Shown here: positions 3,309 through 64,000 of the stretch, one piece after another
How the letters are laid out: every line of letters begins with the position of its first letter
Numbering within the stretch: position 1 is the first letter of the stretch
Source of the DNA: Zeus faber
Lineage: Eukaryota > Chordata > Actinopteri > Zeiformes > Zeidae
Length of the DNA: 64,000 nt
NCBI GenBank assembly: GCA_960531495.1
Contig: OY482851.1
Location: forward strand, 21,981,033-22,045,032
Reading direction: 5' to 3'
Notes under the pieces: model-generated
Seen by the model: the letters and a program-made list of their open reading frames with translations, nothing else
Database searches by the model: none
Told to the model about the DNA's origin: nothing
Position numbers and translations under genes: made by a program

Positions 3309-4127
3309 AGCTGCTTTCACACATGCACTGCAACCCTGAAATTATCCGGACATTCCTCGGATGAGCTGTATGTGTGAACGCAAATGTCTGTATCATTTGG
3401 AACGGACTTTACCGTTAGGTAATTGAAAAGGCCAGCACCTTTACTCAGCCAGCACCTCAGTACAAAGTCTGTGTAATGTCCGATTGATGTGTGAACAGAG
3501 CAGGTGATTGTCTGGAGCATTCACAGCGAGTGAGCAGGTACGGGGACGGTCGCTCAGGAGGTAGAGCTGGTCGTCTAAAGGTTCTAAAGGTTGCTGGTTT
3601 GATCCCAGGCTCCTCCTGCTAGCATGCTGTAGTGTCCTAGAGCAAGACACCTAAGTGCTCCTGTTGGCTGCGTCCATTGGTGTTTGAATAATTGTAAGTG
3701 GCTTTGGATAAAAGCGTCTAGTTAAATGTAGGTGGCATGTTGATGACGTCTCTATCATGCGGCAGTTATTTACCTTTGTGCGGATACCTGCTTTGTTCTG
3801 CTTTCCTTTATATTCCTTTCCACTCTTTTGTTTATATTATGTCCAAAAACATGGAATATCAACGCCAAAAAAGATAAGTCGTTAGCCTCGTCCGCCATCT
3901 TGGGTGTGACGTAAAACTCTGCAGCGTCATGGGTCAATCCTTCATGTCCTCCTGCATGCTCTACCCAGGCGCCGCCCTTTGTCTAAACCAAACGGAGTAT
4001 TTCCAGTAGGAAATCGTCTGACACGGACAATCTTCGCTTGTGTGCTACATGTGTGAAAGAGTTACTCCAGACAATGTCCGGACCTGATTATCCAGATATT
4101 GTCTGGAGTTCATGTGTGAAAGCAGCT
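3309..4127. mobile_element. PIF/Harbinger-like MITE with a nested SINE
   Basis: The ends are a perfect 17-bp terminal inverted repeat (AGCTGCTTTCACACATG at 3309-3325 and its complement at 4111-4127). Similarity continues inward, with both ends carrying a TCCGGACATT-type motif. The element is flanked by CTA on both sides (3306-3308 and 4128-4130), consistent with a 3-bp target duplication as in PIF/Harbinger elements. There is no transposase frame, so it is non-autonomous. A tRNA-derived SINE occupies 3542-3730. The superfamily is a guess from duplication length; the element boundaries are firm. Confidence 0.75.
3542..3730 (+). mobile_element. tRNA-derived teleost SINE
   Basis: The head resembles a tRNA: an A-box-like GCTCAGGAGGTAG near 3552 and a B-box-like GGTTTGATCCC at 3596-3606 (one mismatch to the consensus). 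The body has the AGTGTCCTAGAGCAAGACAC-type segment. The tail, GGCTTTGGATAAAAGCGTCT, is the 3' end common to many fish SINEs that borrow an L2-type LINE tail. It lies wholly inside the MITE at 3309-4127 and so inserted after it. Confidence 0.8.
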
Positions 4128-9250: not shown

Positions 9251-9927
9251 CGCTGCAAGTCATTTCCCTGTCTGTTGAGCTGCAATCCAAGGGGTTAGTT
9301 TCTGGGGGGGGGGGGAAAGGAAAAAAAACAACGAAAACTTTCCCTGGTGTTTTTAATTTTTTTTTGTCTTTTTTTTTTTTTTTTTTAAAGAATAGAAATC
9401 AACAATTGGATCCCCGTGCATTTCCCACGCAGAGGGGGGAAATTACACGTACGACAAGAATAGGGTCGCGATGAAAGGCGGAGTCTACCGCAGGGAATTT
9501 ACTAGGTGAGCTCGGAGAAAGAAAGTTAGAGAATTCCTTTTTTTTCCCCCCTTCTTGGGAAACGTTGTCCCGGCCGGAGCCCCGCAGGAGGAGCGCCGCC
9601 GTACGCAGGACTGCGCTCCGGGATCTTACACACGGGGAGCGACGATCGGCTGACAGAAAAAAAAAAACCAAAACAAAAAAAAAAACAACAACAACAAGCA
9701 ACGTATTTAAACTTATGGTCGACCCCCCCCCACACCCCCCCCTCCTGGGAGAAAACCGTGGATTAATCTGCCGTGGTTTTTGTTTTTTTTAATGGTGTGA
9801 CTGCGGAGCCACGGGTCCCTCAGACGCGCCGCTCGCCGGGGAGAGGGAGAGGGAATCTGCCGCAAAGAAAACTGCACAAAGTGGAGGAAGCGTGACGTCC
9901 CGCACACCCCGCCGCCCGCCTCCGACC

Positions 9928-9965
9928 ATGTCTTAATGCTGGACATTTTTGGGGCACAAATATGA
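9928..9965 (+). other. Two chained upstream ORFs before the 9962 ATG
   Basis: A two-codon uORF (Met-Ser-stop, 9928-9936, A at -3) ends in a TAA whose last A is the first base of the next ATG at 9936. That second uORF encodes MLDIFGAQI and ends in TGA at 9963-9965, overlapping the main ATG at 9962-9964 by two bases. If the leader includes these bases, ribosomes meet two stop/start overlaps in a row before the main start. This would be expected to hold translation down or make it depend on reinitiation. The pattern is seen directly; any function is inference. Confidence 0.45.
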
Positions 9966-9988
9966 TGAAATGGCAGCCCCGGAAGAAG
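9962..9988 (+). CDS. ttc28: Inferred alternative first coding exon of TTC28
   Basis: Nine codons read MMKWQPRKK and run straight into a near-perfect donor, AAG/GTGAGT, at 9989-9994. The reading frame is closed upstream by TGA at 9893-9895, with no other in-frame ATG between, so the ATG at 9962 is the only possible start; a second ATG follows at once. Both have A at position -3. The exon ends in phase 0, and the TTC28 exon at 61010 begins in phase 0, so joining gives MMKWQPRKK-AYFRQG. From recall of mammalian TTC28, the residues before AYFRQG include KWPK, so the short exon resembles that junction and keeps its final Lys. It lies in CpG-dense sequence, as first exons usually do. An isoform starting here would lack the first TPRs of the usual N terminus. 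It could instead be the first exon of another transcript. No RNA evidence is available to me. Confidence 0.5.
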
Positions 9989-11799
9989 GTGAGTGTGGGC
10001 TGTGATTTATTTCTTATGTATTTTGTTCAAGCGGGATTGTTGTTTCGTTCGCGGAGAAGTTGCGGGGGGGGGGATAACGGTGTCGGAGCGGATCGCTGTC
10101 CGTTTGCGCTTTACGTGGAGGTGGTGACGCCACAGGGATGACAGCATCGAAGTTGTTTCTTTCCTTTTCCACTTAAACGATTATCTGTTGTGATTGTGTG
10201 TTGTTATTGTTATCATTTCTTTTTTGAAATTGTTTTTCCTCATCTGGCCACGTTAAGGCGGTGTCTTCAGCAGTTTGGCGCGGTGGGCTTGCAGGGTACA
10301 TGTATATCTATCATTTAGGTTTTTGATGATTTTGGGGGGAGATCTATCCCACCCTGTGGCCCCTAATATCCCCTGTCATTCCCCCCCGATTCCACTCTAG
10401 AGCGGCTTGTCTTGCAGTTCGAGTCGATCAAACGTTGACGTTGTTGATGGAGAGCATCTTCAGTCCGTAGAGGCTGTTTAATCCTGTCCCTTTGAGATGC
10501 GTTGATCTGTAGTATTATGCCTTACTGCTGAGAGCTGCAATATTCCGTTTCAGAAAATGCACCAAAAAAAACCATTACATTCATTTATTGCGTCCTTTTA
10601 CGCAAAAGTTTCCCCAATAACCAGACGCACACTGTCTGTTATTTTTACTGTTGTTACTGCCGAGATCTATCGTCAAAATAGACGGCGGTCCGTTCTGAGG
10701 TCCGGTCTGGGTTTACAGACATTTACTATCTCCTTTCGGATGGAGTTGAAGTACATCGCACGCACTAAGGCTCCCATTTCACAGCCTTCTATGGCCACCG
10801 CACTGGAAAAAAAAAAAAAAAAGATCTGCTCCGCAAAACCTGTCAGGGCAGCGAGACGCGAGGGTTCGAATTTCTGCCGCCAGGGGGCGCCTGTCCAACG
10901 AGAAGGAGCCGTCCCCTGCATGAGGTGGGCTTTTAAAAAACTCCACTGGCTCCGGGCAATTATGAGCAGTTCTGCTTTTCTCCCCCAGTATGTGTGTGTG
11001 TGTGTGTTTTTTTTTTTTCTCTTTTCTTCTCTATCCCCCCCCCCCCCCCCCCAGCAGCCGTGACTGAAAAACATAAAATATCTTCAGCCCCGTCTTCCGC
11101 TTAATTTCACGTCAGGTCAGCAGAGTTGTGGTGATGGTGCATTATTTTATTTTTTTTTTGTAAACTGATGAGTAGGCCAGTGGTGGAGGCCTTCTTTGAT
11201 GTGCACGGCCTCAATTAGGTGCCCACGTTAAATCCTTTTACCTTGATTCCCTTTCATCAGCCTGCGTGGTTCTACATCATGTGTCATTAATAAGCGTAAT
11301 GTCAACCTGAATTATTCACAAGTGATTAAAGGGAAATTTCATGCTTTTCATGATCAAATTATTCACACAGAATATATACCAAAAAAAAAAAAAAAAAGTT
11401 GTGTGGGTGCCCTGATCATTTTAACAGCTGCGTGGCATATCTGCCAGAATCATCTGACGGAGCCCCGTTAAAAAAAAACAAAAAAAAAGCAGCTTAGTGC
11501 AGGAAGTCATTTCCAGTCACACCGCTGAAGATCTACTCAACCTGAAAATATGTCAGTAAACAAATCTCTCGTTTTTTTTGCTGAAAGCTTTCATTAAATC
11601 TCCGTGTGTGTTTATCCAGACAAATTCAGGGGGTAATAGTCGCAGAGGTTGTTGTGACTGATTAGTATGCGTTAGCCATGTTTGACAGAACACACACATT
11701 CACAGAATACACTCACTTTTGCAAAAACAGCCCACTTCTATGCATATGCTCATTAATACTTTCCTATAATATCTGCTATTGCTTGATTCCTATTCATTC

Positions 11800-33880: not shown

Positions 33881-34567
33881 TAGGGGTGCAACAGATCACA
33901 AAACACACGGTTTTGAGTCACGGACTGGATCATTTTTCAGATCAGCAAAAAAAACAACTTTTTCCTGTGGTCTTAAATTAACGTTTAAAAAAAATTTTAA
34001 CATTAATGTGCAGTATGACTTCTTCCTTTTAATATGGTAGTGAATGGAAAAAAAAATATGATCCTCCCCCACTAACTGAATTTAATTCCAATAAGAAACC
34101 AGTATCATGATCAATCTCATCACGTTTCTAACTTCAATTTCATGAAAATCCGATCAGAATTAAGCGAGCTACAGTCGATTTTGTAGAGAAGTCTGCATAC
34201 CCATCATATATGTTTGTTCAGCAGCTACTGCCCGCTGCAATATGGCGAACGAGCAGATGCATGGCGGTGACAAACAGCAGCTCATTCAGACATGTGGTAA
34301 GCGACGTACCGTAAACCAATCATTGCGCTTCATAGTAAAACACAGCGCGCGTCTGTCTTATCTATCTCCTTTTCACTGCAACTCTGCATTCAGATTTATG
34401 GAATTATTACTTTAAAAAGTAACAGCGGCAGTAAAACTGTATTTCACTATGATGGTTAAATTTTGCAATTGATCCGCAGTTCACATGCGTTCTGATTCTA
34501 CCAAACTGTGGGGGTTGGCGGGCGATCCGTACGGTACATGGATCATCTACGTTCAGTTACACCACTA
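33881..34567. mobile_element. hAT-like non-autonomous element, copy A
   Basis: The ends are TAGGGGTGCAAC (33881) and the complement of GTTACACCACTA (ending 34567), an imperfect hAT-type inverted repeat. An 8-bp target duplication flanks it: GGATATTC (33873-33880) and GAATATTC (34568-34575), one mismatch. There is no transposase frame. The whole element matches, in reverse, the sequence at 42950-44124, which confirms it as a dispersed family rather than single-copy DNA. Confidence 0.75.
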
Positions 34568-35162
34568 GAATATTCCCGTATTCGCCAATCAATGCACAAT
34601 GTGCTCTCTAACACCCGCGCCGCTTCGTGGCCATCGATGGGTCTGAACTTTAAATTAAAGCACCAGTCAATGTCGCCCAATTAATGCTGTCCTTTGGCAA
34701 TAAATGGTTTCTTAATGGTAAGTCAATTTCCACACTTTTTCTGTGTAGTCTCATATGAAATGATTAGTGACGCATGGCTGTGCTCCAAGTGGGAAGCATC
34801 CATCAAGCCTGGGAGAAAAGGGATGGCTAATGACACATGTGTCTGGAAGGGACACCCGGGGGGGGATTAGTTTGGTTGTCATAATCAAACACGCCATTGG
34901 ACATCTCTTTTCTTTGTTCTCTTATTGGTAGTTACGCTCACAGGTGCAGAAATGGACGCTTTCAGCCCCTTTCTCTTGACCTGGGGAAGCGTTTCCAGCC
35001 TTGCAGTAGGTACTATAGTTGAGTTTATCTATGTTGACGGCGTCCTAAAGCGTTAATGACAGAAATTCTTCTGGTTCTGCGTCAGTCGTTCTGGCTGGCA
35101 ACACAACAGAGTACCTACACTCACCCGCATTATCCCCCAGTTCTGCTATGCCGAAGCTACAG

Positions 35163-35313
<151 letters not shown>

Positions 35314-36479
35314 GACAGAGAGAGAAAGCACGCACGCGCATGTGCGTGATCCACGGCTGTTGATGTAATGGCTATGTTGTTTTTACGAGTCCCCCGCTCT
35401 GTGTTTTTGGGTCTCTCTGACGTCAATGTGAAGAGCTGCGAGCTACGGATGCCCAGATATCACCATCATCGAGTCTGGTAACGGCGTGGCTCCTTTCTCC
35501 CAGTCTTTGTCTCTCTTTCTCATAAGAAGGCCACAACCAATCTCCAGCGAACCGCACGCCGGTGTCGGGGAAACATTCTCACGCCGTATTTACCTTGACA
35601 AGCAATTTAAACCGACTCGGCGGGAACGTGACCCTCGTGGGGGCTTGAGAACAAAGTGATTGTGCAAGTGCGTTATGTTGGTAAACAGATGCATAAATTA
35701 CTCTGGAGTGGCACGTTAACGGCTCCCGGACTCGTACAATCCTGGAAGCGCGAGCGCGTGGGGGATTATTTAATTCTCCCATTCGTTGAGCACCCTAAAA
35801 CCTCAGCTTGAGCGTTCTCGAAATACCATCTTCGGCGAGCGAGCCGTCTTTGTGCCGACGAGCGGCTTCCCACCCCGGCCCTGAGGTCTGTCGATGTGTG
35901 TGCATCTATCTGCTCACACGCTTTTCTTTTCCCCTATAATTTATAGCCGCCCCCCCTCCCCCTTCTCAAGAGGAAGCCCTCTGCATTCCAAATTCTTCTC
36001 CAGCTCGTTGCACACTATGAAGTACAGCTGTTATGCAAGTTAAGTACAATTGCCGAATGTGAGTGTCAGCGAGTGTACCGCTGGACATTAATACTGAGAT
36101 TTATCTTGTATCCTTTTTCTAAGGTAGTTCAATATTGTGCTTTTTCATATACACATCATTTCACTTCTTACCAACAGTCAAAGTTAATTTAATCAATCCT
36201 GGAATCCTGGAAAGATGCATACGCTGTAGGAACGCTCTCTGCAACTGTCAGAAGTACTAATTATCGACACTAATCAGGGTTAAAATGGCAATGGATCTGC
36301 ATGCAAAACCTGGTTGTATTATCCTCCCACCATGACACCGTGTATCCGAGTACTGCCTACTAAAGTGATAACTTCTCGCTTTTCGGCCGGTCTAATTAAA
36401 ATCTCAGGTCACCGGGCCAACTGGCTAATGCCAAATCTCCTCGAATTACATCCTTGATGTGTGTGTATACCCCGGTAGT

Positions 36480-36660
36480 GTTTGGGAGTGTGATAAAGCC
36501 GTGATGCTAATTTAATTACGCCTCGGCCGCTCTCCAAGGGCCCGGCCTCACCTTATCTGTGATGGCTATGAACCATAACAGATATAATCATAGTAGCCCT
36601 TATGTGGATTTGTTACCAGCACATTATCAGTTTATGGATTAATCAAATTTAGCTCCCCAC
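36480..36660. promoter_or_regulatory. Candidate conserved non-coding element
   Basis: The block combines TAATTTAATTA (36508-36518), TTATCTGT (GATA-type on the minus strand, near 36552), CAGATATAATC and GGATTAATC (near 36637), a symmetric K50-homeodomain site. It is unique sequence without repeats and ends at a C-rich tract. Dense, varied homeodomain and GATA motifs are typical of vertebrate developmental elements. Conservation cannot be tested here. Confidence 0.3.
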
Positions 36661-36834
36661 TTCGTTGGGCAGCCCTCCCTCCCCTCCCTCCCCCACGCTC
36701 CTCCTCAAGCAGTACCAGTAGAGTCCTCCTGCCCATTTCCAGGGCACTCAGGTGTGGCTCCGCCTCCGCACTCTGTTAATTAGGACGTAATGGCTCCGTA
36801 TCTGCTCCCAGGCCAAATGAATTGAATCAGTTCC

Positions 36835-37005
36835 ACCGCGTGATTAAGAGCGCGGGCCTCGATGGCCACCGGCGTCTGTCTGAGGATAATTGTGTTCAGC
36901 GCGTGTCCGTCGGCGGGCGAGGACGCGACCGGCGTCCACGCCGTCCCGGGCGCGTGGAGCCGGGGAAGGAGAGAAGTCTCCGCCCTTCACATCGGCGGCA
37001 TTAGA
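36835..37005. promoter_or_regulatory. Intronic CpG islet
   Basis: About two dozen CpG dinucleotides lie in roughly 170 bp, with runs such as GAGCGCGGGCCTCG, GGCGGGCGAGGACGCG and CGGGCGCGTGG. This is far above the surrounding intron. A 60-codon frame over it (36822-37004) is Arg-rich with no family resemblance and is probably a by-product of the composition. It may be an enhancer or an internal promoter. Confidence 0.35.
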
Positions 37006-38156
37006 ATTAGTCGGAGCTGGGTTTTCGAAAAAGGGGGGAATATTCTTTGGGCAGTCTATCTATTAGTATGGAAATGAAGCGGGGTAGAGGAGGCTCAACA
37101 GCTCAGCGGAGATTTTCCCCAACATAAGGAAGTCTCTTTGAATCATTGCACCAGTATTCCAAAGGTAATTATGGTCTCTTTTACTTCCCCGAGGGTGTTT
37201 CACAGATGAAATACAATACGCCAACATGAGCAACACATGCCTGAGCTGTCGCCGGATAACAATCACTTACCCATCTCTCGAGTTCGTTGACATTTTTTGT
37301 GAAATCGAAATTGTGAGGACGGCCGCCCGCCCCCCATCTGTACCTGGGCGCCTAATACGGCACATCTGCACGGGAACGGAACAAAGACGACAGACAAAAG
37401 CGCACAACCAACCACCTAATTAGGTATTTCTGTAGCCAACAGCCAGAGATAACGAAGGAAGCGGGGGTCGCTGGGAATTGGTTTGACAGCCGTTTTCTCT
37501 CCACGCCCCTCCGTCCCCCAACTCCCCCCCGCCCACCATACCGTACAGTCCTATTGGTCCTTTCGGTAAATACCATTGAGTTAAATTACCGTCCCTGATA
37601 AAAACAGGCCTACCACATAAGTGACGGTAATTGTCTCTCTCAGATTACTTTTCTAACCTTGGCCCCTCGCTCTCTCCTCCTCCTCCTCCCGGCGGAGCAG
37701 TTACTAATCCACCCCCTGTTATTGTAATTTGATGGGACTTTCAGCTGCGTTGTTTTCTTTATCATTTCTTCTTTCCCCATCTCCCTTTGGATGGGTTGGT
37801 TGTCATTTGTAGTGTTTTTTTTTTGTTCTGTTTTGTTTTGTCCTCCAGTGCCCCTGACAGGAGGAGAAGAGTCCTCACGTCCTTGTCAGGGATGCCTCTC
37901 TCTCTCCCGCTTCTCAGACCTCCGCCGCCTCGCCCTGACCTTAACGTCCTCACACACAGACGCAGGGCTCGCCGTGCGGGTAGGCCGCCAAAGAGGAATT
38001 AAACGGCCGCGGAGAAGCGAGACGACGGATAGAATATTATGGGAGCGATGCCGGACCGGGGAGGGAGACAAAGCAAGCGGCAGGGAGGATGGGACGTGGG
38101 GCGAGGGTGAGAGCGATAGATAAATAACTGTTTGACGGGGAATGAAAAAGCCACAG

Positions 38157-42006: not shown

Positions 42007-42883
42007 CCCTCCCTCTAGCTCTCTCGGCCTTTCTTTCTCTTTCGTTCTGACTCTCACTCAGTCTATCTCCCTCCCCTCTCCTCTCGCTGTGTCTGCTCCT
42101 GCCACATTTAGATGGTTTAATGGAAATTATTCAGTAATGGAAAGAAACCAAGCGTCCAAGGTTCGCTGCCTCTTTGTCAAGCCATATCTATTCAAGTCAG
42201 AGAAGACGTAGTACCAAGCGGGGCATACATTTTTTAACTCCTCTGAAAGGCCATTTGTTATTTAGCCGCTGTTAGTGCCATATCTCATTAGCTGGCACTA
42301 AAAAGGCTTTTTTTTTTTTTTTTTTAAAGATTGTTTATCATTTCATGCTCTCTTGACTCAGCTTTTTCTAACATATTCGATTCTGAACCGTTTATTTCTT
42401 CAAGTGAAAGATAATGTGTAGCGGATTTGTGCGTGAGGGCCAGAGTGAGTCCTCACCGGGTCCCACAACTTCCTATTTACTTCGGGCTTCTACCGGGTCC
42501 AGTCAGTATTGAAAAAAGCTTCAGTTTGAATGAATGAATGAATGAAGGTTAATGATGACAACCAGCTCTGTCCTTATGGGTAATACTCATCGGGGTTATA
42601 AGTGATGTATTTGATAGTCTGTACTCCAATAGTATTTAATAGCTTCAATGTTTCCCATTCATTGATTAATCTGTGGAGGCCCGCCGCAATATCAACGTTG
42701 ACCTCCACATATTGATTTTCTAGTTTTTGTTTTTTTTCACTATTTAAAATGGTTCAAATCTTATTTCATTGTAGGGCTGCCTGCAGCAGATTCGCTCAGC
42801 CCCTCCTTCATTCTCTCTCTCCCTCTCTCTCCCTCTCTAGAGAAAATGTTAAAATAAAGATGCTTTAAAAATCAAAAAAAAAA

Positions 42884-42951: not shown

Positions 42952-44124
42952 CCTGCCCCCCAGCATAGTTCGGCAGAATCAGAACGCATGTGAACCGAGG
43001 ATCAATTGCAAAATGTAACCATCATGGTGAAATACAGTTTAACGGCCGCTGTTTCTTTTTAAAGTAATAATTCCATAAATCTGGATGCAGAGTTGCAGTA
43101 AAAAAGGAGATAGACGAGACAGATGCGCGCTGTGTTTTACTATGAAGCACAATGATTGGTTTACGGTACATCGCGCTGTGTTGCTGCTACTTCACTACAT
43201 GTCTGAATGAGCTGCTGTTTTTCGCTGCTGTGCGTCTGCTCGTCCGCCATATGGAGCGGTCAAGACCCGGTGAACAAACAAATACAATGTGTATTGAGAG
43301 AAGAAGAACAGAAGAAGAAGAAACAGACTTTATTCGTCACGCAACACTACAACACATGCTTGCACACACACACGCACATGCTTTGATGGTGGCCGGTGAA
43401 ATGGATCCTCTGCATTTGACCCATCCTGGCTTGTCCTTCCTCCGGGGGCACAGCCAGGAGCAGTGGGCAGCATACGTGGACGCGCCGGGGGACCAGGTGA
43501 TAAGTGTCCATCGCTGGTCAGACGATGATGGGTGCATGTTTTTGGGGGGGTCCTTACTGACGTGAGGTGGAGGAAATATGCAAACTCCACACAGAAAGGC
43601 TCCTCTTTGGGAGATAACCCGCCCGGAGCACGGTGCCAACAGCGCCCCAGGCGGGAATCGAACTCAGGACCTTCTTGCTGTGAGGCAGCAGTGCCACAAA
43701 TAGAGATACAGATACAGATACAGATAGAGATACAGACTTCTCTATAGAGATTGACTGTAACTCGCTTAATTAGGAACCATTTTTCACGAAATTTAAGTTA
43801 TAAAGGTGAGAAATTGAACATGACACAGGTTTCTTATCGTAGTTAAATGCAGTTACTGGGGTCGGGTCTAATTGTATTTTTTTCATTCACAACCATGTTT
43901 AAAGGAAGAAGGTGAGTGCCTCATATTGCACTTTTATGTTATGTTTTCATTTCAACATTCGACTTGAATGTTAAAAGTTCCTTGCATTGCAACACAAAGT
44001 GTTTCACTTAGTGTGCTTTTTCTTTCTTTTTTTTTTTTTTGCTGATCTGAAAAATGATCCGATCCGTGACTCAAAACCATAATACAATCCAAACTGTGAG
44101 TTTCGTGATCCGTTGCACCCCCTA
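42950..44124. mobile_element. hAT-like element, copy B (reverse orientation, interrupted)
   Basis: Read on the minus strand this copy follows copy A (33881-34567) over nearly its full length. Its terminal TAGGGGGTGCAACG sits at 44124 and reads leftward. The opposite end stops at a (CT)n tract (42885-42949), so about 50 bp and the inverted repeat are missing there. A minus-strand SINE interrupts it at 43301-43697, followed by GATACA-type repeats (about 43702-43735). Without the insertion it would be close in length to copy A. Confidence 0.75.
43301..43697 (-). mobile_element. tRNA-derived SINE nested in hAT copy B
   Basis: On the minus strand the head starts GTGGCACTGCTGCCTCACAG near 43697, continues into AAGAAGGTCCTGAGTTCGAT and has a B-box-like AGTTCGATTCC at about 43654-43664. 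This is the widespread teleost SINE head. A CCTTTCTGTGTGGAGTTTGC segment follows, then GGATGGGTCAAATGCAGAGG, and the tail ends in GACGAATAAAGTCTG plus a TTC-rich run (43301-43330). It inserted into the older hAT-like element. Confidence 0.8.
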
Positions 44125-44639
44125 TGTGCGGGATTTTTTATGAATAGCCTCGGATCTAAAATATAGTTATTATTTTTTATATTTTTTTACAAAAATAAGA
44201 ATGATAAAAAATGTGCCCCCGATCTATTCCTCTGTCATTCCGATCATAACACACCTTTAAAATAATAGGAGAGGGTTGATCAAAAACACAAGTATGTTTT
44301 GGGTCCCCTCTGTGTTGATCGGGGCACAATTTGCAGGACCTTGTCTCCCCCTCCATGTAATTGAGACATTGGAGAGGGAGCGATCGCGTGTCCCGTTTCT
44401 CTAAATAGAGCAATTAAAACTATTGTGTTTTTATTTTAGATGTATTTTATTGTGCTCAATTTCGTGTGTAACGGGGACACTCTTCAGTTACTCTCCTAGC
44501 GCATCCCCCCCCTCCGGTCAGCTACCACCACAAATAGAATCTAATTCTGTGGGAAACCCTGAGCTCGACAGGGAGTTTTTAACCCCAGCGCAGTAGTCAT
44601 TCAGATAACAATCCGAGGTGGTTTGCATTCTGAATGGTA

Positions 44640-45100
44640 CAGCGTCGGCGGCACGTGGCCACACGGCGCTTCCCACTGATCCCCCCCGTCTCTGTTCAAT
44701 CACGGGCAGCTGCTCTGCGCCCGCGGGGGCCTCTCCGCCAAGACGCCGGGTCACTCTCCCAGCGCCGAGGGAGAGGAAGGGAAGACAGGATTTGTCTTCC
44801 ATTTTCCCTTCGCTTATCTCTTTTTGTTTGTCCCGGGTTCCGTCGAGGCGAGCGGTGGCCCTCCATTCTCTTCTGGAGCGAGGCAATGTGCCGGCGCTCC
44901 CCTCTCGACCGGCCGGCTCCAAATTGGCAGCCTGACCTTCCCTCTTTCTTTTTTTTCCCCTCCTCGGGCGTGTCTGTGAGAAGCCCATACCTCAACCATG
45001 AGGGGGAAAAATGCAATTAAGAGGTGACATAAACACTGAGCACCCGGCATAGACCGTCGGCGGCGGGGCGGGGATGGGATGGGGGGTGTGGTGGTGCAGC
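44640..45100. promoter_or_regulatory. CpG-rich intronic block
   Basis: CpGs are dense near 44640-44770 (for example GCGTCGGCGGCACG), 44835-44925 and 45030-45065, compared with AT-rich DNA on either side (44160-44500 and 45360-45500). Frames across it on both strands are open but Arg/Pro-rich and unlike known families. It may be an intronic regulatory island. Confidence 0.3.
45065..45086 (+). other. Possible G-quadruplex
   Basis: GGGG, GGGG, GGG and GGGGGG with loops of C, AT and AT, at the edge of the CpG-rich block 44640-45100. Confidence 0.6.
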
Positions 45101-47031
45101 TGCCACCAACGCGGCAATGCGTGGATGCATTCCCATTAATTGGACGCTACACGTTGTGGAGTGACACCGGGTGGAGCTGCGCCGGATGAAAAGCAGTCGA
45201 TGGAACAAGGTCTCACGGAGAGAAAAAGTCAAACTTTGCCCTGCAGTTTGCTGGAGGTGTAGTGACAACAGCGGGTAGAGCCGCGGCCCCATATCTCCTT
45301 TATATATCGCTCCATCTTTTTTGACTTTGCTTACCCTTCTCCTCAGTAAAACGATGCCCATGAAGTAACTGTAAATGTCCAACAAGCTGTTAATGCAGAT
45401 GAGTTTTTCAGCGAATAAGATTGCACTAAAGTTATTACCCAAATGTGTTATATATCTCACGTTTCTAACCGAATATGAGAAGTTTATTTTCCATTTCAGT
45501 TTCAGCGAAGTAAGGCTATTAAAAATCGCCACTGTGGGAGAGAATTGTTTAATTGCGAGCTTAGATGTATGACATTTAGAGCGGCACGTCAAAAGTGGCC
45601 CAAAGTCCAAAAGGTGTCGGTGAGGGACTGGTTAATTACTGCGGTCTCTCCAGGAAAGGGCTTTAATAAGACAACTCAGCGGTGGAAGGAAAGAGCACGC
45701 TCTCACTCACACGCAAACACACACACACACACACACACACAAATTACTATATATGGATTGTTGGCTGGCAGTTTTTTGGAGCGCCTGTGAAAGTTAGTTG
45801 TTTTTTTTGTGTACTTGCATTTGGGTAGAATCCAGACAGCTCCACAGTGCAGAATCCACTCACCTATACCTGACTATGTGCTTGATGGTGGGCTATTTGT
45901 TTAACAGATACACACTGAGAAGCCAAAGATTTTTTTTTTCGATTGAGCGTTGTTTTTAATTACTGTATAGAAGGAAAAAAAAAAACACAAGAGAATATAT
46001 ACAGTGTAGATCTGTGAAGTAATCTTTGTTTCAGCAGCTATTTGTCACTGTTATGGTGGATAACGTGGCCCCGTAGTCGTTTCTATCGTCAGACCGAAGG
46101 CTCCAGGGTTCCCATCTCACGGTCAATAGAGCGGCCGAATGAGCCTGAGGTATATTCTGTTATCGCTATTATATGGACCAATTTTCACAGGACCTCTGGA
46201 GTGAGCCGTAATCTCCGCGCAGTGCAACCTAGTGTGGCCTGCACGCTGTTTTAACCTGGTGAGCGACCTGCCTCTTAACCATGCAGGGGAGCCCTCCCAG
46301 GCCCATCTCCTCATGGACCTGAAACCCCCCCTAACAGGGGAAAGGAACCTCCCCCCTTGTGGGGCCGTGGAGCACCAGGGCATGTATGAAATTCTGTCCG
46401 AGCACTCCAGAAGCCCCTCTTCAATTCCGCAGGCTCTGGGGAAATGAGAGGTAGAAAAAGGTGTAAAACAGGATGTTTAATCCAACAGCAGTTGAGGGGG
46501 GAGCGTGGAGTGTTTTCTTTTTACCCAGGAGAGAAAACACTTCAAAAGCGACCCAGCATTATAGGCCAGCATAATGAGCCATCACTGGCTGATATTAGGT
46601 GGTTTATTCATAGAGTAGAAGATGGCTTAGCGCAGGATGTTATCTTAATGCCATAACATGATAAATGATGCAGGGAGGATCGCGTGGGGAAATAGTAAGG
46701 AAATGTGCAGCCACATATTATCCAGCGCCCGGACGAGTAACAGTTTGTGCGACATGAAGGATTCACTCTGCGGGGAGAAAAGGATGCTTTGCGGTCGCGC
46801 TGATAGAAAGTCCAACATGTGGCCACTAACCGCAGGTGAAAACAGTGTTAAATGAAACTGGCGTGATAGCATGAGATAAGTCTCCGTGGTCATCCTTCCT
46901 AATTACCTCAGCGAACATGATGTAATGCCGTTCACTCTCTGTATTGTAGGCGAGTAATAGTACATTGCTCACACAGGGTGCCATCTAATGATAAGTTATG
47001 AGTGTGAGTCCTCCTTAAATGGTCTGGGGGT

Positions 47032-59729: not shown

Positions 59730-61009
59730 TGCATGCGGGATGTGGATTGGTAGTCAGTGGGGGGGGTGGGGTGCTAGGGCAGAAGTGAATTAATTACTGG
59801 TCTCCATAAATTCGATGTCATGTTTCATTTTCCCTAATCCCCTCCACCACCCCTCTGCCCCCCCCCCGCGCTCCCCTCGCCACGCCAACGGAGAAGCCGG
59901 GTGAAGACTAATGAAAAGGCCTCTTAGATGCTAATGGTGAATTAGCCCCCGTGTCACTTTTGGAAGCGGCGACTGGACCGCCTGTCTGACAGACACACAC
60001 GCACACACTAACGCCAACATACACACACTCAGGGGTTATGGTTTTGGATGCAGACGGCGCAGAACTCCGTCTTTGCGGAGCTGCTCAACAGGTACAGGCT
60101 CCAGACATAACTTTTTTTCTGGAGAAGAACTCATCAGTGATCCCACGAACGACTGCGATCCCAAATAGGACATGCGCTGTAGAAACCCGAACGTGCGTTT
60201 GTGTCGAGAGGTGTCGGGATCCAAAAGGCGGTTGAGACTCTTGGGGAATCAATCAGCAGCCGCAGTCACATGCAGTTTCTGTCTCTCCGATGTTGAATCA
60301 TACTTTGTCCACCATGTGACTCCCTGAGCTAAGAGAATAAAGTAGTGAATTGAGAATGAGAATTGAGAATTCTCAGCTTTTTTTCTTCTTCTTCTTCTTT
60401 TCCCCCTGCTTGCGTAGCCTCATTTTCCCGCTTGCATGGCAACCATATGTCCAAAGCAACGGCACATGTATTATGTAAAGCGATGTGGCAGAAACAGACC
60501 GGGCTAGTCGTATTATTATTTTACAACGCCAGCCCTAAGAAAGAGAATAAAGAGTTTGAAGTATTTATGGGTTTTCTTTTATGACACTGCTGAAGTCAGT
60601 AGCTACGTCTCCTCCTCTCTTCTTCCTTTTTTAAAATTTCTTTAAAAAAAAACACATCGACACAGTCAAATGCCTTTTCGAGCAAATGAAAAATAAACTT
60701 TTGAACACAACACAACAGTTACGTCTGAGTCAGGCGGCAGGCCAACGTGTTACACGTTCCTTAATGTTGAACTTATTATCCAATTAACAAGTACAAAAAA
60801 GCCGGCGATCACTCTATTATGGGGAACACAAAAGGCGAGAGGTGCCATACTCTGAAAACTGCTCATGTGGAAAAAATGCAAATGGCGTGAAATGAGTGTC
60901 TGGTAATGTGTTTGTATAAAGCTCCATGCTGCGGTGTCAGACAGGCGCCCCAGTGGCTCTCTCTCTCTCCTTTTCTTACCCTCTCCGTGTCTTTCTTTTC
61001 TTTTCTTAG

Positions 61010-61157
61010 GCATACTTCCGACAGGGTGTTGCCCTTCAGTACCTTGGTCGCCATGCCGACGCGCTGGCTGCCTTCGCCTCCGGGCTGGCCCAGGACCCCA
61101 AGAGTCTGCAGCTGCTGGTGGGCATGGTGGAGGCCGCCATGAAGTCCCCTTTAAGAG
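61010..61157 (+). CDS. ttc28: TTC28 internal coding exon (third N-terminal TPR)
   Basis: This 148-bp exon encodes 49 residues plus one base. It starts AYFRQGVALQYLG, contains HADALAAFASGLAQDP and ends EAAMKSPLR. I recognise it as the N-terminal TPR exon of vertebrate TTC28 (TPRBK), a protein of roughly 2,500 residues with many TPRs and a C-terminal CHAT domain, reported at the spindle midzone and midbody. The TPR signature is visible: helix A with Gly-Val-Ala-Leu-Gln-Tyr-Leu-Gly, helix B with Ala-Leu-Ala-Ala-Phe, and a closing Asp-Pro. The acceptor is a long pyrimidine tract (about 60957-61007) followed by AG at 61008-61009, phase 0. The donor is AGAG/GTACGG with GT at 61158-61159, phase 1, which fits a following Asp codon as in the mammalian protein. 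Codon choice is GC-rich compared with the AT-rich flanks. No following TTC28 exon is visible before 64000. The family call is very secure. The exact exon number is not known from here. Confidence 0.95.
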
Positions 61158-64000
61158 GTACGGTGTTCCCAGTAATCCCAATCCATGTGTGGGGTAGGTA
61201 GGTTTCCTGCAAGACTTTCCTTCTGTTCTATTTTTTTCCGTCTCTTCTTTTATTTCGACTAATCACCAGACTGGCTAATTTCACTGTTGAGATCCTATGA
61301 ACCTCTGTGGGTTTGGTTCAAAATGGGCCAATCTCCTGTCGTTGCAGGGCTCTAGTCTCTACGCTCGAGTTAACGCTGCCGCCATTTCCGCGCGTTCTGT
61401 CCCGCAGGCCATTTCGACAGTCCATTTTTTGAGACAATCTTGACTCTCCGCCAGTCAATGAGTCTGTTTGGGGTGACATTAGCTGTCAACTTCTGAACCT
61501 CCTTGGCAGGCGGACTGTCACTCGACGTGTCGGTCAGTCTGCCCCGTCTATCTGCGTGACTGACATTCGCTGCCGAGTACTTCTCCCCCTCTGACTGCGA
61601 AGGCGATGCAGCCCTGCAGGTTCAGCGTATCTGATTGTGATTCCGGCCGATCACAGCCAAAGATAGACCTTTATCTAAATGAGCTCCCAACAATACAGCT
61701 ATTGTTCGTCTCGTCCCGGACAACCCGGTGAAAAGCAGATTGCCTGGAGCTGAGGGGATTTATTAGAGGCTTATTAAAACCAAGATGCCTACAAAACTAT
61801 TGGACTTCCGTCACCCGTCGTCGACCGATGACCCCGGCCAACTGCTGGGAGTTGGTTGTCAGGGAGCGGGACGTGGGAGCCAAACCTCAAACTAAACCTG
61901 GCACCGATTTCACATCAGCTGACCAGCTGCAGAGTTCTTAATGTGCTGCAGATCTGGAGACACGCACCGCCAACATGGACTGAGTCATACTGCGGTCCCT
62001 CTTTTGTCATCACCCGAAACCTGCTTCTCCAAACTGTTGCTCAATCAAGAATAAACGCACCCTTGATTTATTTTATTTATTTTTTTGATCCCAAATTTAA
62101 CGCCACAATGAGATCAGCACTTCTGAATGGCTTTGTTTTTTTTTTCCCAGAGTGAACACGAGGCTCCTTTGAATGCGTGCTTGTGAGTCACTCTTGCTGA
62201 CTACAGAGAAAAACACCCCAAAGAGAATCAAGAAAGCCAAGCTCATCCGGGCGACAGAGAGATTCTTAGCCCGTCGCTGGAACTCAAACAGCATGACACG
62301 TTTGGGTGTCGACCCAGGACCGAGCGATATGGCTCGAGTAGGCCCGCTCGGGCCAGGAAAAGACTCAACTCTTACCCTGGCGGCTGTTTAATCCCTTAGT
62401 TGTTTACCACATTTCCCACAGTGCCGGGGAGCCGGTGGGAGGACAGAATCCAAGGTGTGCTGAGGAGGGGTAGTTAGGTCAGGGGATTAAGAGCAGTGAT
62501 CCTCTTCGAGGGGGCTGCTGGCACCTGGGGGTGGGAGTGGGGGTGGGAGGGGTAATCAATGTGATGCCAGCAAACACGGAGGATAATCAGTGTTACGTAG
62601 CCAAAGCCCTCCGATGAGGCCGAGGTAGGCGAGCCTCTCATGCTTCCATTCTAGCAGAAGAGTTTTAATGTCCCTGCCAGCCTTGCTTATCGTCCTTGTA
62701 GCACCCCACCACCATTGGATTCAGCCGGGGATTACCATGCCCACTAATTTCATTTTCCCCCCCAGCTCTGAGTTTAGAGCCGAGTTTAGAACTCCTTGAA
62801 CGACGGAAGCCGCTCCCGGAAATGAACGCGGCCCTACTTATATGTAAAAGAGCGACGGTTTGAATTTAAATCATTTGTTTTCATGTTCACTTGTTACAAA
62901 TTTCTAATTATGCATTTTGTCGCTACCAGAGTAATTTCATTGTAATCCTGCATTGTGTAGACTGCAACTGTGTTTGAGTTCATAGTCACTGTGGTGTTGC
63001 TCAGAACCTGATTGTCCTCATTACTATTCATCTTTGCCACAAAGACGTGAGTGCACTGTTATGTTTTTTTTTCCCCATGCACCTCAAGAACCTTTCTGTT
63101 TATTCTTCCGTCTATGAGCTGAGGGACGCGGTTGATGATCTACTTGCGGAAAATAAATATTCAATGCCACAGGACGACACACGCAGTAATGAACCTGAAG
63201 GAGCGCTACGCCTTCAAGGACGCGACGTGTCACGAAGCGAATTCATCACGGCGCACTCCACGCCGCCAGAAAGCATATTTGGATTCCGGCGCATACCCTA
63301 ATTCTTGGTGTGTCAAATGCAAGTCTGCTCCCTCTCTTTCTCTCTCGCTCTCCTCACTTTCCTTCTCTCTTCTTCTCCTCTCCCCTCCCATTACTGCGGA
63401 GTCGGCAGCGTCGCCGATTCTTTGCCTTCCACCACAACATAGAACTTTCGCGGAAGTGCGATCCTCTAACCACCCCGCTCCCTCTCTGCCTCCACTCCCT
63501 CGCTTCCCTCGGATCAGCTCATCCTCCCTCCAATATCAGATTTTCGAGAGAGATTTGCGGGAGGGGGATCAGATCTCGCTCAAGTGTTTACGTTTAACGA
63601 AGACGTGCGTGGATCTGAAAGGTTTTGTTTTTCTCTTCCGCGGAGCTTCGTCCTGCATTGTCTCCTAGCCCACAGCCAAAAAGCTGGACGGTCATTCAAT
63701 TGTGAAATCCTGCCCGTCCATTAATTAATGATCTGTTTCACTACGTAACGTACATTTCAGTGGTAGATTTACGCTGGTGGGAAGATAGACGCTTGCAGTG
63801 GAACAGCGGGTTGCATATTAAATGTTATCATGGAATAACAGCTCGAAAGCATTTCCCCCCCGCTGTGCTATGTCAATCTGTTAATCAGCATTAAAAATTC
63901 CTCAAACGGCCGTCTGGGAATCTTAAGAATGGCTTTGTTTTTAATTGTGTGGAAAGTACACAGTAGAATTACTGATAGAAATAACGAGGAAATTTTTTTT
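61158..64000 (+). other. Start of the next TTC28 intron
   Basis: This is non-coding sequence after the GT donor at 61158. The expected next exon, which in the family starts with the split Asp codon followed by Ser-Leu-Glu-Pro, was not found. The interval contains a G-rich quadruplex motif at 62527-62552, pyrimidine-rich tracts around 63330-63390 and AT-rich unique sequence (62830-63000, 63680-63960) without recognisable repeats. An 84-codon open frame at 63047-63301 has no family resemblance that I can see. Confidence 0.6.
62527..62552 (+). other. Possible G-quadruplex downstream of the TTC28 exon
   Basis: GGGGG, GGG, GGGGG, GGG and GGGG with loops of T, AGT, T and A. It lies about 1.4 kb after the exon, on the sense strand. 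Confidence 0.6.

Follow-up and report, generated by a model that had tools for sequence, protein, structure and literature searches.

The window analysed here, the whole stretch of 64,000 nucleotides at C7:21981033-22045032 in a genome of 803 Mb, contains exon 3 of ttc28 and, ahead of it on the same strand, a short open frame with a splice donor. Exon 3 starts at 61010, is preceded by ...TTTTCTTAG, reads AYFRQGVALQYLGRHADALAAF... in phase 0 and ends at 61157, where GTACGG follows. Its translation matches seven Pfam TPR families, every one of them under its curated cut-off. Exon 2 of the C7 gene was located by reading 70 kb 5' of the window; it occupies C7:21939401-21939700, ends in NPKWPK before GTAAGG and lies 51.3 kb upstream of the short frame. 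Exon 2 encodes TPR1 and TPR2, and exon 3 encodes the third TPR. The exon numbers are inferred: the name "exon 2" was given because an acceptor-like CAG stands before TTTTC in both copies of the gene (the second, on C17, is described below) and because the C17 copy has no in-frame ATG there; exon 2 of C7 does contain ATGs in frame, and no position was assigned to exon 1. The features of the window are listed in Table 1.

Table 1. Features of the window at the putative alternative first exon and at exon 3 of ttc28 (window positions; upstream positions in the last column are relative to the first ATG of the exon)
Feature	Position	Strand	Observation
CpG-rich stretch, putative intronic promoter	9386..10188	.	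Island-like runs 9386-9788 and 9647-10188 (2 of many in the window)
Upstream mini-ORF, ATG TCT TAA	9928..9936	+	ATG at -34; C17 without ATG there
Conserved part, putative 5' UTR	9932..9961	+	21/30 bases as in C17; 10-nt bins 7, 8, 6
Upstream ORF, nine codons, TGA overlapping the ATG-ATG start	9936..9965	+	ATG at -26; C17 has ACG
Coding part, putative alternative first exon, MMKWQPRKK	9962..9988	+	26/27 bases as in the C17 ttc28 copy, 0 residue changes
Splice donor GTGAGT	9989..9994	+	Joint-best donor score (2/4209 + strand GT sites); in C17 GT kept, rest changed
Acceptor AG of exon 3	61008..61009	+	Pyrimidine-rich tract, then TTAG; AG aligned in C17
TTC28 exon 3 (third TPR; number inferred), in phase 0, out phase 1 at GTACGG	61010..61157	+	tblastn E 2.5e-24, human TTC28 as query

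Positions 9962-9988 read ATG ATG AAA TGG CAG CCC CGG AAG AAG (MMKWQPRKK) and run directly into GTGAGT at 9989-9994, and the nearest in-frame stop 5' of the double ATG is a TGA at 9893-9895. A sequence-only reading of the window had proposed that a double start, an upstream in-frame stop and an AAG/GTGAGT donor occur together here and that their phase of 0 suits the acceptor at 61010. Direct reading of the sequence bears out the combination, and the phase does fit, the TTC28 exon at 61010-61157 being entered in phase 0. Donors were scored with a matrix of textbook frequencies; by this matrix, 2 of the 4209 GT sites on the + strand of the window (9989 and 43912) reach the score of 9989, and of these two only 9989 has an open, in-frame, phase-0 ATG within 300 nt. 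The - strand likewise has two sites of this score or better among its 3374 GT sites, neither of them with such an ATG. Like alternative coding first exons, the stretch combines an in-frame start with a phase-compatible donor and lies within an intron of ttc28 on the strand of the gene, exon 2 being upstream and exon 3 downstream.

A DNA search of the genome with window positions 9880-10000 returned two places: the query, and a minus-strand match at C17:9750755-9750813 with 83% identity over 59 bp and an E value of 1.4e-8 (two candidates, two scored; the repeat counts of the tool are lower bounds). On the gene strand, the C17 sequence is ACAAAT ATG ATG AAA TGG CAG CCC CGA AAG AAG followed by GTAATC. 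Its peptide is the identical MMKWQPRKK, the one base change is synonymous, and in-frame stops stand upstream of the exon in both copies alike. With the human TTC28 N-terminus as query and 200 kb of C17 as target, the tblastn matches listed include a GLSKAEF...NPKWPK exon at 9769713-9769480, exon 3 from 9737766 and later exons beyond it, all on the minus strand. The 200 kb include 10,000 N bases, 5000 in 9720001-9730000 and 5000 in 9770001-9790000, and none between exons 2 and 3. A genome search with 61010-61158 also found two places (two candidates, two scored), and these are the same two loci as those of the exon. By its sequence, the C17 locus is a second copy of ttc28. On C7 and C17 alike, the alternative exon stands after exon 2 and before exon 3 on one strand, with spacings of 51 and 51 kb on C7 and of approximately 19 and 13 kb on C17. 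Judged from these comparisons, the match pattern of block 9880-10000 exceeds chance, its one other genomic match falling exactly at the place expected of a ttc28 first exon.

Conservation was assessed in one paralogous comparison, C7 against C17, in which the conserved block spans 59 bp, from 30 nt 5' of the ATG up to the donor GT, between flanks that cannot be aligned. Identity per 10-nt bin is 10, 10 and 8 from the ATG through the donor GT; outside the block it ranges from 0 to 5, with 0-4 of 10 in each bin further upstream, to -90. The exon is thereby conserved at a related locus in 26 of 27 coding bases with the GT kept and the full donor consensus changed. The sequence-only reading had looked to conservation of both the ATG and the GTGAGT donor, and the comparison with the C17 duplicate supports its interpretation: the ATG-ATG, the frame, the nine residues, the phase, the strand, the position and the GT are all retained, whereas the rest of the donor (GTAATC) is not. 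Exon 3, in which 125 of 148 bases are identical between C7 and C17:9737766-9737619, has changed at 15 of its 28 fourfold sites, at 4 of its 16 other degenerate sites and in one residue among 49 codons; the alternative exon differs at one of two fourfold sites and at none of four other degenerate sites, with no residue change. At the rate of 15/28 taken from the fourfold sites of exon 3, the probability of one difference or fewer in 27 bases is 3.2e-8; a lower rate, 0.25, gives 0.004. With six degenerate sites, one of them changed, protein-level selection is indistinguishable from nucleotide-level selection.

By the same matrix, the C17 donor, AAG/GTAATC, scores 2.3 bits compared to 8.2 bits for that of C7. 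In the C17 copy of the exon (C17:9750724-9750784), the GTAATC donor is followed within ∼12 bases by an ATT microsatellite. Given this weak donor and the nearby microsatellite, the C17 copy may splice poorly or be losing the exon, and the ttc28 copies on C7 and C17 may differ in their use of this start.

When the window was compared with the 200 kb of C17, the alternative exon and exon 3 were the only in-order matches beyond simple and dispersed repeats, which were sorted by eye. The remaining matches are microsatellites, dispersed-repeat-like or out of order. Window segments 3542-3730, 43316-43694, 34185-34426 and 42688-42830 have 73-89% identity to the C17 region and are dispersed-repeat-like. 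For 42688-42830 (E value of 2.4e-14 to C17, out of order), a genome search with 42688-42800 gave 216 candidates, of which 40 were scored, and all 40 were matches; with at least 40 genomic matches, this segment is a dispersed repeat and serves as a control for the two-place result of the exon. Two short AT-rich segments, both out of order with respect to the exon, also resemble C17 sequence: 44403-44451 resembles C17:9754688-9754640 (E value of 7.8e-8), and 44182-44246 resembles C17:9731950-9731879 (E value of 0.002). As expected, prokaryotic and viral sequence collections contained no match to a degenerate pattern of the exon. Structured RNAs were considered as further candidates in the window and were rejected, with no Rfam family at gathering score and no tRNA (ARAGORN, bacterial code).

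The exon was said to have CpG-rich surroundings, and it does, with an observed/expected ratio of ∼1.0 compared to a median of 0.6. The 500-bp windows starting at 9401-9801 hold 33-37 CpG each at observed/expected ratios of 0.94-1.09, and the window-wide medians are 15 and 0.6. Among the top 20 windows listed, similar richness is found at starts of 35301-35601, 36501-36901, 44501-44801 and 63101-63201. The corresponding CpG-rich stretches (35139-36063, 36655-37153, 44449-45368 and 63066-63701), which have approximately the density of 9400-10200, lie in the same intron or past exon 3. Because the density is equalled at these other sites, CpG alone is not special to the exon. For the C17 copy, the preceding 500 bp contain 46 CpG (observed/expected ratio of 1.14), and thus CpG-rich DNA lies 5' of both copies. 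A core-promoter word scan found no TATA box or CCAAT common in place to the two copies. A scan of 9300-10100 with a bacterial-type promoter model, which is uninformative for a vertebrate, gave no promoter-like and no terminator-like sites. The upstream ATGs of the C7 copy, at 9928 and 9936, could reduce translation of the exon.

The observations comprise the sequence itself, its frame and phase, the gene order and how closely the two ttc28 copies agree. By far their best reading is that 9962-9988 is very probably the coding part of an alternative first exon of ttc28, conserved and under an intronic promoter. Given its nearly letter-for-letter preservation in the duplicate copy, ttc28 probably does have a second start here. 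We propose that the alternative first exon is driven by an intronic promoter, rich in CpG and located between exon 2 (TPR1-2) and exon 3, with transcription beginning a short distance 5' of 9962. Splicing in phase 0 over 51 kb would join 9988 to exon 3 at 61010, and translation from the ATG-ATG would yield MMKWQPRKK-AYFRQG.... The predicted short TTC28 would have lost all upstream-encoded parts, including TPR1-2, and would retain everything from exon 3 onward. Promoter activity, splicing, translation and a functional consequence of the exon are what we infer from the conserved arrangement. The exon would also predate the duplication of ttc28, which, from the divergence of the copies, is taken here as the teleost genome duplication.

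Conserved DNA in an intron may instead be regulatory, an enhancer or the intronic promoter of a noncoding RNA, in which the open frame is incidental. The CpG-rich DNA around the block in both copies would suit such an element; nevertheless, conservation stops at the donor GT and is strongest over the 27 coding bases, the one base altered among these leaves the peptide the same, and both copies suit TTC28 in frame, phase and strand; we regard this explanation as improbable. If the intron housed another gene or a transcript for a small peptide, with this frame in its first exon, the donor would be joined to an acceptor other than that of TTC28 exon 3, and the 51 kb that separate the frame from exon 3 on C7 leave space for more exons. 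The C7-C17 comparison, with repeats set aside by eye, offers no other conspicuous in-order conserved stretch before exon 3, and phase 0 suits exon 3 in both copies; a nested gene is therefore very unlikely.

Short frames with a donor do arise by chance, and the nine codons could be a chance pairing of the two, or a dispersed repeat. This account is disfavoured to the point of being hardly credible: one of the 4209 + strand GT sites satisfies score, ATG and phase together, and the block occurs at two places in 803 Mb, both in ttc28 (counts being lower bounds), compared to at least 40 for a repeat from the same intron. An alternative first exon of ttc28 accounts for the arrangement better than any of these.

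The short TTC28 was expected, from the sequence-only reading, to lack its first N-terminal TPRs, and this agrees with the content of the exon that would be skipped, C7:21939401-21939700, which encodes TPR1-2. Against Pfam TPR_2, the N-terminus scores 24.9 bits with the alternative exon (cut-off of 27), compared to 55 for exons 2 and 3 together. In a PDB search with exons 2 and 3 of the C17 copy, HOP (STIP1) was the top natural protein among the best 60 of 99 matches (E value of 1.6e-36), after an engineered TPR protein. The dicarboxylate clamp of HOP TPR1 is formed by residues K8, N12, N43, K73 and R77. With this numbering, long TTC28 matches the three-TPR clamp at the equivalents of N12, N43, K73 and R77 but differs at that of K8, which is V in both the C7 and C17 proteins; with four of five positions, the N-terminus of long TTC28 is clamp-like only and falls outside the HOP type. 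The K73 equivalent is the final codon of exon 2, right before the splice. Compared with the HOP clamp, short TTC28 would lack the helices of N12 and N43 and bring a lysine of its own before the junction (RKK-AYFR). With TPR1-2 missing, short TTC28 cannot form the N-terminal three-TPR unit, and it should therefore be without whatever that unit binds. The two exon ends that precede AYFRQG are alike, PKWPK in exon 2 (C7:21939686-21939700) and KWQPRKK in the alternative exon (window 9968-9988); a duplicated exon end or a convergent helix cap is possible.

Alternative promoters with coding first exons inside long genes are well known in general, and the ttc28 exon is a new case; its interest lies in its age, in how cleanly the N-terminal TPR unit would be lost and in a possible human counterpart. 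The DLG2 promoters HPin7 and HPin8, as described in PMC5518101, are similar in that each is an intronic promoter candidate whose first exon is short and coding and joins a downstream exon in shared use. They differ in the nature of the evidence, which is CAGE, chromatin and RNA-seq data for DLG2 and conservation between two copies for ttc28. In the open-licence PMC literature, there was no mention of KWQPRKK and no mention of TTC28 together with "alternative first exon"; predicted-transcript databases may already model the isoform.

Human TTC28 has an intronic H3K4me3 region (hg19 chr22:28832791-28840308) with CAGE peaks and transcription factor sites, as listed in Table 4, row j, of PMC5518101. 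In the same source, steps in the coverage of fetal-brain RNA-seq place a splice site of the region at 28838873-4 (hg19). The region has a CEGA score for vertebrate conservation of 553 and the Ensembl type promoter, and it was deleted in two cases and one control, with no significance mark. It resembles the fish exon in belonging to the same gene on the same strand (PMC5518101), and the human intronic promoter is a possible counterpart of the exon. The well-known L1 of TTC28 sits in intron 1 near 29.065 Mb, according to PMC3996660. We put forward, as a tentative conjecture that is somewhat doubtful, that a second, ancient TTC28 promoter after the TPR1-2 exon is common to fishes and mammals, is active in the developing brain and gives a TTC28 without the HOP-like N-terminal TPR unit, and that the human promoter, among the regions deleted in neurodevelopmental patients, is its counterpart.

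TTC28 has been implicated in cell division, and zebrafish TTC28 works with Dachsous1b on microtubule dynamics, according to PMC12132318. If the second start is true, mutations or knockouts in upstream exons would leave short TTC28 intact, and the N-terminal TPR unit would be optional and regulated separately. The exon sequence (ATGATGAARTGGCARCCNMGNAARAAR then GT) provides a concrete query for the human intronic TTC28 promoter.
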